NCBI RefSeq assembly: GCF_018449605.1
Contig: NZ_JAAVUW010000005.1
Coordinates: 310,001-374,000 of the forward strand
Reading direction: 5' to 3'
Origin: Luteibacter sp. dw_328
GTDB lineage: Bacteria > Pseudomonadota > Gammaproteobacteria > Xanthomonadales > Rhodanobacteraceae
Length of the DNA stretch: 64,000 nucleotides
A program made the position numbers and the translations under genes. The notes under the pieces were generated by a model. The model was not told the origin of the DNA and ran no database searches. It saw nothing but the letters and a program-made list of their open reading frames with translations. Position 1 is the stretch's first letter; each line of letters opens with the position of its first letter. Below, piece after piece: positions 888 to 54,360 of this stretch.

Positions 888-2585
888 ATGAAGAAGCAAG
901 TCACCCTGGCCATGTGGGGCATGTTGCTATGTCACGGCACGAGTTCCGCACAGGAAACACCGAACTGGCAGCTCCCCGCGTTGCAAGCCACGACGATCAC
1001 GTGGGCTCCATGCTCGCCGACGCTCGTACGAGCAAGCGCCTTTCGGCTGGGTGAGCGCTTGCGCTGCGGCACGATGTCCGTTCCGCTGGATCATCATCCC
1101 CAGGCCGGAAATATAGACGTCGCCCTCATCCGCGTCGCCGCGAGCGATCCGGCGCATCGGCAGGGTGCCATCTTCTTCAACCCGGGCGGGCCGGGCGAAA
1201 CCCCGATGCACTACCTGCCATCATTGGCACAGTACTGGGACGACGCGTATGCCGAACACCCCGTGCACGGGACGAAGAAACATCTCTCCGCGCAATTCGA
1301 CCTGATCGGCGTCGTTCCACGCGGGCTCGAAGGCGGCACTCGCTTTACGTGTACATCCGACGCCCAGTCGACCGACTACAACGACATCGTCGCCGATTCT
1401 TCGCCGGCGAATGTCCAGCGGATGGAAAGCTACATGCGTGCGACCGCTGCCGCGTGTCGCGCCAATCCGCTCCATCGGTTCATCAATACCGAGCAGACGG
1501 CGTATGACATGGAGGTCGCGCGCCAGTCATTGGGTGAACCGCGACTGCACTACCTGGGTTTTTCCTACGGCGCGTGGCTCGGCAGCTGGTATGCGGCCAC
1601 CTTCCCCGAACGAGTGGGACGCATGGTGCTCGATTCCAGCATGGACTGGACGGCCGATTGGGATACCAACGTCACCCGCAGCAAGGAGGCATCGCAGGCA
1701 AGATTCGATCGCCTTGTCGGCGAACCCGCTGCAAATGACACTGATCGCTATCGACTCGGAGCGGATGTCGCGACGGTTGTCGCCCAGGTCGAGGGCCTTA
1801 CCTTTCGGGTCCGGCAGGCCTGGGGCGGATTCTGGAAAACGCCCGAGGATCTCCTTGGGGCGCTGATCGTGTCGGACTGGCTGCGCGTCGAGCCTGACAT
1901 CAGCATTGAAACGCTCATCGCGCGTGCGCAGGCCTATCGATTCCATCATGAGGACGCCGTCGACACGGCGATACGCAACGCGGTCATAGACCAGCCATGG
2001 CGGCTCTTTCCGGGGACACATCAGCCCGAACCGTTTGCGCTCGACGCGGTCGACTCCGTGTTCTCGGCTGTCATGTGCAATGACATGCCTTACAACGGTG
2101 ATACCGCTCATCATCAAGCCAGGATTGCGACGCTCGCCCGGGCCCTTCCCACCGTGAACGGGCTGGGGCTGCAATACCACTGCGTGTACTGGGGAGGATC
2201 GCGGGCCATGCGTCCTCCGCTGAGCCGCATGAGTGCTGCCGGCGACATCCTCATGGTCCACGCCGCATTGGACCCGACGACACCGCTCGAGAGTGCCAAC
2301 GCCGCGTTCGAGCGCAGTGCCACGACTCACCTTCTCGTGGCTGAAGGTATCGACGAGCATGGCGTCTTTGGCTTCACGGATTCCGCGTGCATTGAGGATA
2401 CCGTCGGTCGCTACCTGCTCACCGGCATCCTGCCGGCGGGACGCAAATACCGTTGCGCAGCAACTCCGGCAGCACATGGTGGTCCCGAACGCGGATTCAC
2501 ACATCCGGGACGCGCCGCTGCACTTCGCGTGGAACTTTCGGGCATGCGTTCCACCTTGATCCCCGTGGGAGGGACCCATCTGTGA
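888..2585 (+). CDS. Secreted alpha/beta hydrolase, S33 tripeptidyl-aminopeptidase-like (paralogue 2 of 3)
   Basis: 565 residues with a signal peptide ending near SSAQ (residues 18-21). The TAP/S33 order of motifs is present: oxyanion-type NPGGPG near residue 100, nucleophile elbow GFSYG with Ser226, acid Asp462 (HAALDPTTPL) and His491 (DEHGVFGF). The motif usually written DPRGVG reads VPRGLEGG here, so the family Asp is missing. Cysteine pairs such as CSPTLV...RCGTM fit a periplasmic or secreted enzyme. Expected activity is a serine peptidase or esterase removing N-terminal peptides or acyl groups. The next gene overlaps its stop, suggesting translational coupling. Confidence 0.8.
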   Translation: MKKQVTLAMWGMLLCHGTSSAQETPNWQLPALQATTITWAPCSPTLVRASAFRLGERLRCGTMSVPLDHHPQAGNIDVALIRVAASDPAHRQGAIFFNPGGPGETPMHYLPSLAQYWDDAYAEHPVHGTKKHLSAQFDLIGVVPRGLEGGTRFTCTSDAQSTDYNDIVADSSPANVQRMESYMRATAAACRANPLHRFINTEQTAYDMEVARQSLGEPRLHYLGFSYGAWLGSWYAATFPERVGRMVLDSSMDWTADWDTNVTRSKEASQARFDRLVGEPAANDTDRYRLGADVATVVAQVEGLTFRVRQAWGGFWKTPEDLLGALIVSDWLRVEPDISIETLIARAQAYRFHHEDAVDTAIRNAVIDQPWRLFPGTHQPEPFALDAVDSVFSAVMCNDMPYNGDTAHHQARIATLARALPTVNGLGLQYHCVYWGGSRAMRPPLSRMSAAGDILMVHAALDPTTPLESANAAFERSATTHLLVAEGIDEHGVFGFTDSACIEDTVGRYLLTGILPAGRKYRCAATPAAHGGPERGFTHPGRAAALRVELSGMRSTLIPVGGTHL

Positions 2586-4270
2586 ACCTAGCGCTCGCAC
2601 GTCGGTCGTACGCAAACGCACTTCTGTGCGCCTCTTTCGCCGCAGTTTGCTTCATCTTTCCCATCGACCTCCGCGCAACGGCCACCACGACAGCGATCAC
2701 CTGGCGGGCGTGCACGCCGGAGCTTCTCGAAGCGGGGTGGATCGCCGCGCTTGGCGCGCGCCTCGAGTGCGGGACCATGCTGGCGTGGCTCGATGCGGAC
2801 ACCCCCGCGCTCGGGTCACTCACCGTGGGCCTCGTACGATTAAGGGCCGGCGATCCCGCGCGCCGCGAAGGCTCGATCTTCTTCAACTTCGGCGGACCCG
2901 GTGGCAATCCCCTGGATTTCCTGCCGGGCTTTGGCTACTTGTGGTCGACCCGCTCCCTCGACCACCCACTCGATGGCGACAAGCGACGCCTGACCGACCG
3001 TTACGACCTGATCGCCGTCATTCCCCGCGGGTTACGCGGTGGTACGCGCTTCACCTGTCGTCATCCCGAGGCGAGCGATGGACACGACCCCACGGTCGAC
3101 CTCGCCGACTGGAACTGGGACGGCTTCGCGAAGGATGCAAAAGCCTATGCCGCAGGTTGCGCTGCGGACCCACTCCATCCGCATGTGGGAACCCTTCAGC
3201 ACGTTCGGGATATGGAACAGGCTCGACTTGCCCTGCACGAGAACGTACTGAACTTTGTCGGCATCTCGTACGGCACGTGGGTCGGCGCGTTCTACGCCTC
3301 CGCGTACCCCGACCATGCGGGCCGCATCGTTCTCGACTCGGCGATGAATCATGCCGGCACCTTCGAAGACCAGCTGGCGGACGATCCTTACGAGCGCCAG
3401 TCGTCGTTTGCGCGAACCGCATTGCGCCCTGCCCTTGCCGCGCCGGCACTTTATGGCGTCGGCAGCGATGCCGACGAGGTCATGGCGCGTTTTCGCAACA
3501 TGCCTCATCGGGCACACGAAGCCTGGGCGTCGACGATCGACACCCCCGAGGAGCTGGTTGCCGCATTGACGATGGCCGACTGGATTCTGGCTGACGGGAA
3601 AGGCACGCAGGCTCATCTTCTCGCGCGCATGAAAGGCCACCGTTTCAGCCGCGATAGCGCCGTGGATAACGATATCCGTCGTGCCGCGATCAGATTTGCT
3701 GCGACGGCCGAGCAGGGCCTGGCTTTCGATTCCGAGGCCGAGCGCCTGGTCGACTTCTCGGTCTATCACGCGGTCGTTTGTGGCGATACGCCATGGCAGA
3801 AAAACCTGACGTCGTTGCGTGGGATGGCCAACAACATCGGGGCCAGGTATCCGGCTTCCAACGGCGTTCCTGTCACCGTCGGTCTGACGTGCCTGTACTG
3901 GCCCACGGCCCCGCGGTCGCGCCCTTCATTGGCGGGCCTCGCCAAGGCGCCGCCCATGCTCATGGTTCAAGCGGAGTTCGACCCAGCGACGCCGCTGACG
4001 GGGGCGATTCGTGCCTTCAACGCTTCGCCGAATGCTTACCTGGTGCTTGCACGTGGCATGACTGGGCACGGGGTATTCGGCAGCTCGGCCACGCCCTGCG
4101 TCGAGCGAGCCGTCGGTCGCTTCCTCCTCGAAGGAGAGCTACCGCGGCAACGCCTATCCGGCTGCGAGTTCGTGCCGACGCCGCCGTCGCGGCATGCCCG
4201 TGGCGTCGAAACACCTCTGGACGAAGGCGTCGTCCGCGATGAACTCGTGCGTCGCCTTCGAACGAGCTAA
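2582..4270 (+). CDS. Secreted alpha/beta hydrolase, S33 tripeptidyl-aminopeptidase-like (paralogue 3 of 3)
   Basis: 562 residues. I chose the GTG at 2582: it overlaps the previous stop (GTGA), has GGGAGGG about 9 nt upstream, and begins a plausible signal peptide (VNLALARRSY...FIFPIDLRA). The frame stays open upstream to an earlier ATG, but that extension overlaps the previous coding region and has no signal peptide. Catalytic residues by position are Ser229 (GISYGTWVG), Asp467 (QAEFDPATPL) and His496 (TGHGVFGS). As in its neighbour, the usual DPRG motif reads IPRGLRGG. The three copies probably arose by tandem duplication. The substrate cannot be read from the sequence. Confidence 0.8.
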   Translation: MNLALARRSYANALLCASFAAVCFIFPIDLRATATTTAITWRACTPELLEAGWIAALGARLECGTMLAWLDADTPALGSLTVGLVRLRAGDPARREGSIFFNFGGPGGNPLDFLPGFGYLWSTRSLDHPLDGDKRRLTDRYDLIAVIPRGLRGGTRFTCRHPEASDGHDPTVDLADWNWDGFAKDAKAYAAGCAADPLHPHVGTLQHVRDMEQARLALHENVLNFVGISYGTWVGAFYASAYPDHAGRIVLDSAMNHAGTFEDQLADDPYERQSSFARTALRPALAAPALYGVGSDADEVMARFRNMPHRAHEAWASTIDTPEELVAALTMADWILADGKGTQAHLLARMKGHRFSRDSAVDNDIRRAAIRFAATAEQGLAFDSEAERLVDFSVYHAVVCGDTPWQKNLTSLRGMANNIGARYPASNGVPVTVGLTCLYWPTAPRSRPSLAGLAKAPPMLMVQAEFDPATPLTGAIRAFNASPNAYLVLARGMTGHGVFGSSATPCVERAVGRFLLEGELPRQRLSGCEFVPTPPSRHARGVETPLDEGVVRDELVRRLRTS

Positions 4271-51403: not shown

Positions 51404-51801
51404 CCGTTCCAGCCGCGCTGCGCGTCCAGGTACTGACGCACGACGTAGAGATCGGCAACGTTGCCCGACAGCATGCGTTCCAACGCGGGTTGACCGCCGA
51501 AGAGCGAGGCGTCGTTGGGCTTGCGCAGCCAGGCATCTGCCTGGGCAGGATCGGGAAAGAGGATCTGGAGGTCCTTCCAGATGCCCAGCAGATAGCTGAT
51601 GCGCTCGATCACGTCGCGGGACGGGGCACCATCCTGCTGCTTCTTCCACTTGAAGTACGTGGATTCGGGCGGGTCGCCGAGCAGCGTGCGTTGCTCGGTG
51701 ACCCGAAGTTTCCAGCGTTCGGCCAGGGCGAAGAAGGCCCGGAGCGCGGGACCACCGAGATCACCGGTGGGCGTGGGTTCGGCATGGATGACTGAGTGCA
51801 T
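51400..51801 (-). CDS. Antitoxin of the Xre/MbcA/ParS family (DUF2384)
   Basis: 133 residues from the ATG at 51801. The N-terminal half is an Xre-like helical DNA-binding part (LAERWKLRVTEQRTLLGDPPESTYFKW). The C-terminal DUF2384 toxin-binding segment reads DVIERISYLLGIWKDLQILFPDPAQADAWLRKPNDASLFGGQPALERML. It neutralises the RES toxin encoded 4 nt overlapping downstream and represses the pair. Imperfect tandem repeats upstream (51831-51853) could be its operator. Confidence 0.9.
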   Translation of the reverse strand: MHSVIHAEPTPTGDLGGPALRAFFALAERWKLRVTEQRTLLGDPPESTYFKWKKQQDGAPSRDVIERISYLLGIWKDLQILFPDPAQADAWLRKPNDASLFGGQPALERMLSGNVADLYVVRQYLDAQRGWNG

Positions 51802-51830
51802 CGTTGCTCTACCTGTGGAGTTATTTGGCA

Positions 51831-51853
51831 ATATAACCCACATATAGACCCAC
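51831..51853 (-). promoter_or_regulatory. Candidate promoter/operator of the RES-Xre pair
   Basis: ATATAACCCAC and ATATAGACCCAC lie side by side (plus-strand reading), 30-52 nt before the antitoxin start. On the minus strand they give GGGTYTATAT twice and include TATATT-like -10 sequence. Tandem direct sites suit autorepression. Confidence 0.4.
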
Positions 51854-51926
51854 GTCACGGTATCTTTTATTTTGGTTCATCGCGGAATTCCGGGCTGCGG
51901 AACGCGTGGACGTAGCGGCGCAGAGC

Positions 51927-52060
51927 CTTCGGTGCCCACCCTCGCTGCTCAGACACGTCCTCCGCGTTTCGTACCGGAAAGTCCGCTGCGCGGACCATGT
52001 TCTTATTGGCCTACGGCCGCTCCACTTGTGCGGAACTCGCCTCGAGGGTGGGCACCGAAG
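51927..52060. repeat. 134-bp structured element, copy A
   Basis: Bounded by a perfect 18-bp inverted repeat, CTTCGGTGCCCACCCTCG / CGAGGGTGGGCACCGAAG. Inside are an 11-nt GGCC-TAC-GGCC hairpin and GTCCGC-TGC-GCGGAC. The first 24 and last 35 inner nucleotides are identical to copy B read in reverse. The middle is variable. No plausible gene here; overlapping reading frames have no family similarity. Confidence 0.8.
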
Positions 52061-52302
52061 ACTCTTCCCATCCCTGAGGTTCGTGCGGGTCGAGCCGACA
52101 AAGAAGCGCCGCTGCGGCTGCTGGCTCGTCGCCATTGCCAAACGGTCGACCCCCGGCGCGCCGAGATCGTCCGCGTAAGGCAGCGCAGTGGGCTCGCCGC
52201 GCCGGAGATGACGTATCTGCACGACCGCCGTAACCGCGGGCTTCGGTGGCAACACCCACGCCCAACGGCTCTCCTCCCACCCAACCGTATCGTCGTGAGA
52301 GA
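52061..52302. other. GC-rich spacer between the two structured elements
   Basis: 242 nt between copies A and B. It has several short dyads (for example GGTCGACC-type around 52144-52151) but no convincing gene, promoter or repeat family. Confidence 0.4.
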
Positions 52303-52436
52303 CCTTGGTGTCCACCCTCGAGGCGAGTTCCGCACAAGTGGAGCGGCCGTAGGCCAGTTAGGTACATGGGCCGCGTGAGCGGCCGTCCTTTTCGAACGCG
52401 GAGGACGTGTCTGAGCAGCGAGGGTGGACACCAAGG
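52303..52436. repeat. 134-bp structured element, copy B (inverted)
   Basis: Exactly the same length as copy A, in the opposite orientation. Ends are CCTTGGTGTCCACCCTCG / CGAGGGTGGACACCAAGG, a perfect 18-bp inverted repeat that differs from copy A at three positions, all compensated in the opposite arm. The internal hairpin reads GGCCGC-GTGA-GCGGCC. The pairing extends a few bases outside the ends (GAGACC / GGTCTC). Confidence 0.8.
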
Positions 52437-52578
52437 TCTCCCCACGAAGCGCCCAAGTGTAGGGAGCGATGGCAACGCCGAGCCCGCGAGGCCGAAGGCG
52501 AGCCATGCGCGCGGGCGAGGGCGAAAGAACGCCCGGCCTGAAAGCCGAGCGTCTCACCCCGGTAATCCACGATGAGCC
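52437..52578. other. Non-coding flank between element B and the DUF885 gene
   Basis: GC-rich sequence with a 7-bp hairpin at 52531-52550 (minus strand GCTCGGC-N6-GCCGGGC, then GTTCTTTCG) that could weakly terminate the DUF885 transcript. No gene seen. Confidence 0.35.
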
Positions 52579-54315
52579 TTATTTTTTGGAGGCGATCCAG
52601 GCGTCTACGTGTTGCTCGAGCACGGGGAGGGGGACCGAGCCCAGGGCCAGCACGGTGTCGTGGAAGGCGCGCAGGTCGAATTTCTCGCCCAGCTGGGCTT
52701 CGGCACGCTCGCGCAGCTCGCGGATCTTCAGGTAGCCCAGCTCATAGGACAACGCCTGGCCGGGCCAGCTGATGTACCGATCCACTTCGTTGGCGATCTC
52801 GCGCTGACTCAGGGCCGTGTTCTGCGTGAGGTAATCGATCGCCTGCTGGCGGGTCCAGCCCAGATGATGGATGCCGGTGTCGACCACGAGACGGCAGGCG
52901 CGCCACATCTGGTAGGTGAGAAAGCCGAAGTGTTCGTAGGGCGTGTGGTAGATGCCCATCTCCTCGCCCAGATACTCCGAATACAGCGCCCAGCCCTCGC
53001 CGTAGGCGGAGATGTAGCCGTCGCGACGGAAGGGCGGCAAGCCGTCCTGTTCCGCGGAAAGCCCCAACTGCAAGGCATGGCCCGGCATGGACTCATGCAG
53101 GGTCAGCGCGGGCATGTTGAACAGCGGACGCGACGGCAGGTCGTAGGTATTGACCAGATAGACGTCCGCGCCGCCGCGGCCGGAGGTGTAGTACGGCGCG
53201 ATATCCGCCGGCACCGGCTCGATCGCAAAACGCTGGCGCGGCAACAGGCCGAAATACTTGCCCAGCTTGCCGTCCACCTGCTTGGCCACCCATGCCGTAC
53301 GCATGAGCAGCTCGTCGGGCGTCTTCGCGTAGAACTGGGGATCCGTACGCAGGAACTGCAGGAAGGCGGGGAAGTCACCCTTGAAGCCGGTGTCCTTCAT
53401 GGTCTCCAGCATGGCTTCGTGGATTTTCGCCACCTCGCGCAGGCCGATCGCATGGATCTGGTCGGGTGTCAGTTCCAGCGTGGTGTACTCGCGGATTTGC
53501 TGCCGATAGTAGGCCTTGCCATCCGGGAGCGATTCGGCGGCCAGCGTGGGCCGGGCCTTAGGCACGTACTCGGTGCGAAAGAAGGTCAGCAATTTGCCGT
53601 ATGCGGGGATGACACCCTGTGCGATCGCCTTGCGTGCGTCGGCGCGGAGCCCCTCGGCGTCCTTGGCCGGCATGGACTTCGGCAGCGTCTTGAACGGCTT
53701 GTAGAGCGCGCTGTCTTCGGGGTTCTTCAGTTCGGCCACGGCGGCGATCGACACATCGCGCCCGTTGAGCACCTCGCGAGGAACCGTAAAGCCGCGCGCC
53801 AGCCCCAGGCGCATGTTGGCGATTTCCTGATCCATGTAGGCCGGAATCTGCCGCACGCGCTCGATGTAGTGCTGGTAGTCCTCGCGCGTGCGCAGGTCGT
53901 CGCCGTGCAGCACATAGCCCACGTCGGACCAAAAGGCCGAGTCGCTGTTGAACGGCATCTGCCACTGCGCGAAACGCTGTGCGGCCGCGAGGTTGAAGAT
54001 CTGCTCGCGGTACACGGCGTAGTCGACACGAACCGTGCCGCTCAGGCTATGTGGGTCGATGCGGTCCAGTTGTGCCAGTACGTCGTCCCAGTAGGCCAGT
54101 CGCCTGGCCTGGCTGGCGGCATCCACCGTATCCAGTCGTCCGTCACCGGGCTGGGCCTCGCCGGAGGTGAGGATGCCTGCCTGTCCGTTACGCCAGGTCC
54201 ATTCCTTCGAATAGATGCCCTTGAAGGCCTCGTCCGGCGACGCGGGCGGCGCGGCGGCGTGGGCGGTAGCGGCGAAAACACCAGCGAAGGCAATGGCGCG
54301 GATCCAGGGGGACAT
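52579..54315 (-). CDS. DUF885-family exported metalloprotein
   Basis: 578 residues from the ATG at 54315, which begins a clean signal peptide (MSPWIRAIAFAGVFAATAHA). An ATG 33 nt earlier would bury it. The family metal site HESMPGHALQ (HExxxGH) lies about 400 residues in, with a likely third ligand in YGEGWALYSE. DUF885 proteins are large helical proteins resembling M32-like carboxypeptidases; a peptidase role is inferred, not shown. It ends 142 nt from the structured element block. Confidence 0.88.
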   Translation of the reverse strand: MSPWIRAIAFAGVFAATAHAAAPPASPDEAFKGIYSKEWTWRNGQAGILTSGEAQPGDGRLDTVDAASQARRLAYWDDVLAQLDRIDPHSLSGTVRVDYAVYREQIFNLAAAQRFAQWQMPFNSDSAFWSDVGYVLHGDDLRTREDYQHYIERVRQIPAYMDQEIANMRLGLARGFTVPREVLNGRDVSIAAVAELKNPEDSALYKPFKTLPKSMPAKDAEGLRADARKAIAQGVIPAYGKLLTFFRTEYVPKARPTLAAESLPDGKAYYRQQIREYTTLELTPDQIHAIGLREVAKIHEAMLETMKDTGFKGDFPAFLQFLRTDPQFYAKTPDELLMRTAWVAKQVDGKLGKYFGLLPRQRFAIEPVPADIAPYYTSGRGGADVYLVNTYDLPSRPLFNMPALTLHESMPGHALQLGLSAEQDGLPPFRRDGYISAYGEGWALYSEYLGEEMGIYHTPYEHFGFLTYQMWRACRLVVDTGIHHLGWTRQQAIDYLTQNTALSQREIANEVDRYISWPGQALSYELGYLKIRELRERAEAQLGEKFDLRAFHDTVLALGSVPLPVLEQHVDAWIASKK

Positions 54316-54360
54316 GCAGGAGACCGTTGGCGGGGAAACCCCGATCATCGCATTCCCGGA

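Follow-up and report, generated by a model that had tools for sequence, protein, structure and literature searches.

What are the two inverted palindromic sequences that lie between a RES-Xre gene pair and a DUF885 gene in Luteibacter sp. dw_328, and how did they get there? Both are found in the 64,000-nt stretch of DNA analysed here, termed the window, and are referred to as modules A and B. An initial annotation, made from the bare sequence, had described them as equal in length (134 nt), opposite in orientation and closed by perfect 18-bp end repeats, with three end differences that are each matched in the opposite arm, internal hairpins that change as a pair and identical inner blocks. Renewed comparison bears this description out. 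With B reversed, 99 of 134 positions are identical, the end repeats can be followed over 23 nt in A (96% identity) and over 22 nt in B (100%), and the matched end differences, the hairpins and the identical inner blocks are all present. The module features are as follows.

51927..52060, plus strand: module A, 134 nt (sequence, own-genome matches and covariation)
51927..51944, plus strand: 5' arm of the 18-bp terminal stem of module A (inverted-repeat comparison)
52043..52060, plus strand: 3' arm of the same 18-bp stem (inverted-repeat comparison)
51981..51995, plus strand: hairpin P3 of module A, GTCCGC-TGC-GCGGAC, covarying between species (module alignment)
52008..52018, plus strand: hairpin P4 of module A, GGCC-TAC-GGCC, stem unchanged in 49 of 49 modules (module alignment)
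52303..52436, minus strand: module B, 134 nt, inverted (sequence, alignment to A)
52369..52384, minus strand: hairpin P3 of module B, GGCCGC-TCAC-GCGGCC (alignment to A)
52345..52355, minus strand: hairpin P4 of module B (alignment to A, module alignment)

Folded as RNA, single modules reach z-scores between -5.5 and -8.0. Within the window, a 21-nt core pattern is found in A and B and nowhere else, also when two mismatches are allowed. The structure of A and B is not a chance product.

A search of the organism's own genome (5.05 Mb, 21 contigs) returned 40 scored module matches and revealed that conservation continues past both modules. Away from most contig ends, 35 copies or fragments could be identified, with further pieces located at contig ends. 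The 35 fetched loci comprise 27 with two modules, five with one module, two fused palindromes and one copy cut at a contig end; paired modules are inverted, with starts usually about 380 bp apart. Re-orienting 30 copies exposed the ends of a larger element, namely GGTTCATCGCGGAATTCCGGG on the left and CCCCGGTAATCCACGATGAGCC on the right, the latter being the reverse complement of a sequence similar to the left end. The terminal inverted repeats of the window element are imperfect and start with GGTTCATCG and GGCTCATCG. Target-site duplications, which the initial annotation had proposed to look for, were found in the form of TTATTTT on both sides. We read the feature as a 705-bp non-autonomous transposon, a miniature inverted-repeat transposable element (MITE) with ISL3-type ends in which the paired 134-nt modules are passengers, and assign this reading a probability of about 0.8. 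The frame drawn by the initial annotation was thus right in its two modules and too small in its extent, both being internal to an element with ends and a duplication of its own. The features of this element are as follows.

51874..52578, plus strand: complete element, 705 bp, ISL3-type MITE without transposase gene (sequence and own-genome copy comparison)
51867..51873, no strand: TTATTTT (7 bp), target-site duplication on the left side (sequence; identical 7 bp at the right end)
51874..51894, plus strand: left terminal inverted repeat, GGTTCATCGCGGAATTCCGGG (copy comparison; likeness to ISL3 ends)
52061..52302, no strand: spacer separating modules A and B, of lower conservation, 65-83% in three shared insertions (identity comparison)
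52557..52578, minus strand: right terminal inverted repeat, reading inward GGCTCATCGTGGATTACCGGGG (copy comparison, sequence)
52579..52585, no strand: right copy of the target-site duplication, TTATTTT, holding the TAA stop of the DUF885 gene (sequence)

The DUF885 open reading frame (52579-54348) adjoins the right side of the element. On the left, the ATG at 51801, taken as the start of the xre antitoxin gene, is located 72 bp from the element, and a longer open reading frame on this side begins at a GTG at 51858. The RES-Xre pair highlighted by the initial annotation is real, as judged by Pfam matches, but incidental, because other copies sit elsewhere. One of them (L032, G000:C15, 982-1446) is found inside the terminator of the tmRNA gene (ARAGORN 982-1377), and a toxin-antitoxin-linked function was rejected on account of copies at such other sites. 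The sequence downstream of the tmRNA gene varies between Luteibacter genomes.

No transposase gene or other gene was recognised within the element, and its assignment rests on its ends. A 1311-bp ISL3 insertion sequence in a genome of another genus (L328/L111, G161) carries the ends GGTTCTTCACGGATTACCGGGG and GGTTCTTCGCGGAAGTCCGGG. Both are the same in the Luteibacter copy L155, and the window ends are close variants of them, which identifies the element as an ISL3-type MITE. The transposase frame of L328/L111 is split in two, so this insertion sequence may be inactive; ISL3s with an intact frame, for example L095, carry close variants of the element ends as well. Related ends and 8-bp duplications are also found on ISL3 insertion sequences of other genera. 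Relatives of the L095 transposase were found in 23 of 233 family genomes (E <= 1e-20). The organism's own genome gave no match at this threshold, and its sole, weak PF01610 match falls in a fatty-acid desaturase (PF00487) and was rejected as an ISL3 transposase. The MITE has ISL3-like ends, an 8-bp duplication, many copies, empty sites and no internal transposase gene, and no autonomous partner was found in its own genome; a fossil MITE, or one that is mobilised from time to time, can do without such a partner. Most likely, an ISL3 transposase acting in trans would have bound the GG...CC ends and moved the element. The initial annotation had also suggested a hairpin-dependent mobile element. 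Mobility holds, but hairpin dependence is not needed as an explanation, because the ISL3-type ends lie outside both modules. With ISL3 insertion sequences and MITEs, the element shares the GG...CC ends (those of L328 in particular), the 8-bp A/T-rich duplications and, as in other MITEs, the lack of a transposase gene; it differs in its inverted pair of conserved folded modules, its strong terminator preference and the fact that no transposase was detected in its own genome.

To define target sites, 114 loci were examined for ends, yielding 56 with two candidate ends at no more than 5 errors, some of them poor, and 58 without an end pair. A strict-end set, requiring at most 3 errors at both ends and applying no duplication filter, consists of 36 copies from 7 genomes, including 15 from the own genome. 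At least 5 of 8 bases are duplicated in 31 of these 36 copies and at most 4 of 8 in the other five. Six copies have a full 8/8 duplication (L053, L149, L152, L177, L187 and L055), and in the window copy 7 bp agree. As most duplications are homopolymeric, each on its own is weak evidence.

The locations of these copies are strongly biased. With an intrinsic terminator defined, by script, as a T tract adjoined by a stem of 5 bp or more, 35 of the 36 strict-end copies occupy such a terminator tract, compared with 5 of 38 A/T homopolymer-rich 8-mers of the window (Fisher p = 1.3e-14), where the control tracts all come from this one stretch, the copies are not all independent, since insertions L049/L144 and L056/L145 are each common to two species, and target choice is mixed with survival, since insertions into genes would be purged. 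An earlier, duplication-filtered set gave 35 of 36 in terminators against 5 of 40 control tracts and 34 of 2000 random positions. The sole strict-end copy outside a terminator is the window's own. A one-module version with ISL3-type ends is likewise found in a terminator in genome G005. The mobile part of the feature is an ISL3-type MITE, and its target preference is unusual.

This preference is probably a property of the ISL3 branch with GGTTC ends. From 60 partly overlapping loci, 12 ISL3s were taken whose ends could be recognised and in which 5 or more of 8 bases are duplicated. Ten of them have GGTTC ends, and seven of these ten are located in terminators, compared with neither of the two with other ends. 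We propose that the element inserts into 8-bp targets rich in T, which in most cases are the T tracts of intrinsic terminators and would become duplicated in the process. Duplications are present and terminator hairpins intact at inserted copies, and a terminator whose T tract is duplicated should still function, making the insertion harmless; termination would thus be kept. If so, terminator T tracts would represent safe landing sites.

Other mobile elements are known to use terminators. IS1272, a member of the IS1182 family, is reported to target terminator hairpins often and to cut at the hairpin without target duplication (PMC4923244), and group IIC introns are reported to recognise the terminator stem-loop (PMC7161350). 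The Luteibacter element resembles IS1272 in targeting terminators but duplicates the T tract and leaves the hairpin intact, which does not fit terminator targeting of the IS1182/IS1272 type. Group IIC introns are retroelements, a ribozyme with an encoded protein; the Luteibacter element has DNA-type ends, a duplication and no recognised gene. Our data suggest that one ISL3 branch and its MITEs use a terminator strategy with a mechanism unlike that of either group. In the accessible parts of the open-licence literature, including PMC4923244, PMC7161350, PMC4133298 and PMC9208149, we found no description of the element or of ISL3 terminator targeting.

The element is widespread in its genus. The initial annotation's proposal to search host and related genomes for further copies was fruitful: besides the many own-genome copies described above, a DNA search detected the whole element or pieces of it in 16 of 23 Luteibacter genomes, own genome included. 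A covariance-model search, limited to 14 scored candidates per genome and strictly filtered, detected the module in 14 of 233 family genomes, all of them Luteibacter and including the own genome and a weak case (G007), that is, in 14 of the 23 genomes of the genus. In a species-level genome collection, at least 80 stretches contain the exact 21-nt core pattern, and 80 of 80 among the matches listed are named Luteibacter. Viral contigs gave no exact match to this pattern, and no relatives of the element were found in plasmids, phages or E. coli. The folded modules are a structured repeat, confined to Luteibacter in these searches and present in more than one element type.

Comparison of insertion sites between genomes revealed empty as well as filled sites. 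At the tmRNA site, 21 other genomes have a match and the element is absent from the 140 nt compared; the downstream sequence is too different there to define a base-exact empty site, so the flanks of six other own-genome copies were joined and searched in eight genomes instead. The joined-flank sites of L035, L037, L040 and L049 align uninterrupted to G010 (72-81% identity) and that of L037 also to G016. Base alignments of empty sites were obtained for L037 (G010 and G016), L040 and L049, the shorter L049 alignment being in essence confined to one side. In G014 the L049 site is filled (L144), with both flanks matching. With one matching flank each, the L056 site is filled in G014 (L145) and the L033 site in G010 (L119). 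Some insertions are thus common to several species and others are not.

We analysed the modules using an alignment of 49 distinct modules from 13 genomes, selected out of 183 distinct ones, in which 97.9% of cells at paired positions are paired. Two-sided changes are found at 10 of 39 pairs and involve 78 cells; the shuffled mean is 26.6, with none of 500 shuffles reaching 78, and sliding the partners gives 1-7. These counts are a shuffle comparison, not R-scape, and inflated by relatedness. Further pair types stand out less, at 22 versus 18.3 in shuffles (4 of 500), and one outer-stem pair is unpaired in 18 of 49 modules. Between species, the P3 stem changes from GCCGC/GCGGC to GCGCC/GGCGC, GCCCC/GGGGC or GCTGC/GCAGC. 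The conserved structure with changing sequence noted initially from two copies therefore holds between species. In three shared insertions, modules are 90-96% identical compared with 55-84% for spacer and arms, and 40 random pairs of 26 own-genome copies have mean identities of 94% in A, 78% in the spacer and 93% in B. Core changes are species-specific and common to A and B types; the end stems, by contrast, remain of A or B type from one species to the next. On our reading, the outer stem and one hairpin are held by pairing and the core by sequence, with the A and B cores changing together, and this concerted change may be due to gene conversion or a shared binding partner.

Gene conversion could, in principle, account for the modules as a whole. 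If copies were homogenised by it and template switching in hairpins yielded compensatory pairs, covarying modules would arise without selection or function. The core variants common to A and B types within one genome fit such a process, for example position 30 of the trimmed alignment, a C in G000 and a gap in G014, or the A-to-G change at position 25 together with the gap at position 30 in G012. So does the low number of non-Watson-Crick cells, in which G.U is not favoured over C.A (18 versus 101 in the outer stem). However, homogenisation would need to cover the core yet spare spacer and stems. A- and B-type end stems remain distinct in the five species in which both types are well sampled, and the core is retained in species that carry the module in other elements. 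We therefore hold functionless modules to be doubtful, and rate a selected fold, be it RNA or DNA, above pure homogenisation, as a judgement and not a proof. It should be noted that dozens of natural copies per genome make selected folding and hairpin-templated repair experimentally distinguishable.

Our working reading is that each module functions as a folded unit, which would be either a putative RNA read from the spacer towards the outside, on the strand complementary to the one modelled, or a DNA fold that serves as the site of a protein. The first version, a structured RNA serving the element or its host, was already suggested by the initial annotation and can be entertained tentatively. 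In 45 of 49 modules, the strand complementary to the modelled one gives the better fold, with consensus energies of -67.7 versus -57.1 kcal/mol, and many core nucleotides that have no predicted partner are invariant or nearly so. In the outer stem, C.A combinations on the modelled strand, which would be G.U on its complement, occur in 101 cells (32 genome-by-pair events) against 18 cells (17 events) for G.U (p = 0.04), an excess that does not favour an RNA of the modelled strand itself but shrinks to 24 versus 16 events (p = 0.27) once one column is removed. Together, C.A excess and fold energies weakly favour the complement strand, if an RNA exists at all. A functional RNA would, however, be unusual in having two opposed modules in each element and dozens of copies in one genome. 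Positions 51500-52900 gave 0 matches at E <= 1 to the Rfam 15 covariance models, and a known RNA family was rejected on this basis. The conserved core motif that integron attC sites carry at the ends of their palindrome was not seen on inspection by eye.

Modules also occur in elements that lack recognisable ISL3-type ends. By eye, no ISL3-type ends could be recognised within 150 nt of the outer modules at 20 loci of genomes G003, G018 and G001. In G003 (L185 and L348-L357), the elements that contain the modules are larger and palindromic, with GGTTCATTCGC...GCGAATGCATGT as a repeated arm and no visible duplication, and repeats beginning GTAGGAGC are located nearby. In G022, two modules that form a diverged inverted pair stand 2.4 kb apart and enclose a candidate phage-defence system of two genes (L222, G022:C83:30600-36100, 1517-4025), with PADLOC matches to PDC-M02A and PDC-M02B, encoding a DUF4365 protein and a 386-aa protein. 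In G018, an ordinary pair, unlike the diverged one of G022, with modules about 970 bp apart, encloses a 228-aa open reading frame on the minus strand (L359, G018:C1:4844370-4847100, 802-2037), which has no Pfam match and whose product looks like a secreted protein. The modules are a clear example of a structure with covariation that a transposon has dispersed and that different kinds of carrier contain.

Such arrangements are reminiscent of REPINs, which consist of two palindromic units in inverted orientation moved by RAYT transposases. Two inverted palindromic units and many copies are common to both; the Luteibacter units differ in being 134 nt long instead of short REP sequences and in the presence of ISL3 ends and a target duplication. 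By analogy, the inverted module pair could itself be the mobility signal, recognised by an enzyme that moves the enclosed DNA, with ISL3 ends being a later addition. The 20 loci without recognised ISL3 ends and the different contents enclosed in G022 and G018 would fit this scenario, which we nevertheless consider improbable. No enzyme was found, and RAYT (PF01797) is encoded in 22 of 23 genus genomes, including ones in which no module was found, and so does not track the module (14 of 23), ruling it out as a partner. The G003 arm, starting with GGTTCATTCGC, could be a diverged ISL3 end. Further, an IS30-type element in G009, another possible content, is more simply explained as an insertion into a fused palindrome, and IS30 was rejected as a partner on the same grounds. 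A broader and likewise improbable version would make the module the recognition or processing unit of a so far undescribed mobility system in Luteibacter acting on folded DNA or RNA, in which inverted pairs bound movable, cargo-carrying units, for example candidate phage-defence genes, and one lineage was captured by terminator-steering ISL3 ends. The ISL3-type MITE with passenger modules remains our preferred reading of the window element. Rickettsia palindromic elements and other bacterial palindromic repeats are dispersed palindromic units of about 100-150 bp and by description similar to the modules, which are carried by ISL3-type ends.

In the G009 locus (L226, G009:C1:826900-830500, 1024-2525), the IS30-type transposase gene (HTH_38, rve) is found at the centre of the fused module palindrome, and the flanking inverted repeats of the IS30-type element are about 64 bp long by eye. 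Fused palindromic module versions are also present in the own genome (L173 and L176), apparently resulting from loss between A and B, and L176 has ISL3-type ends and a terminator location.
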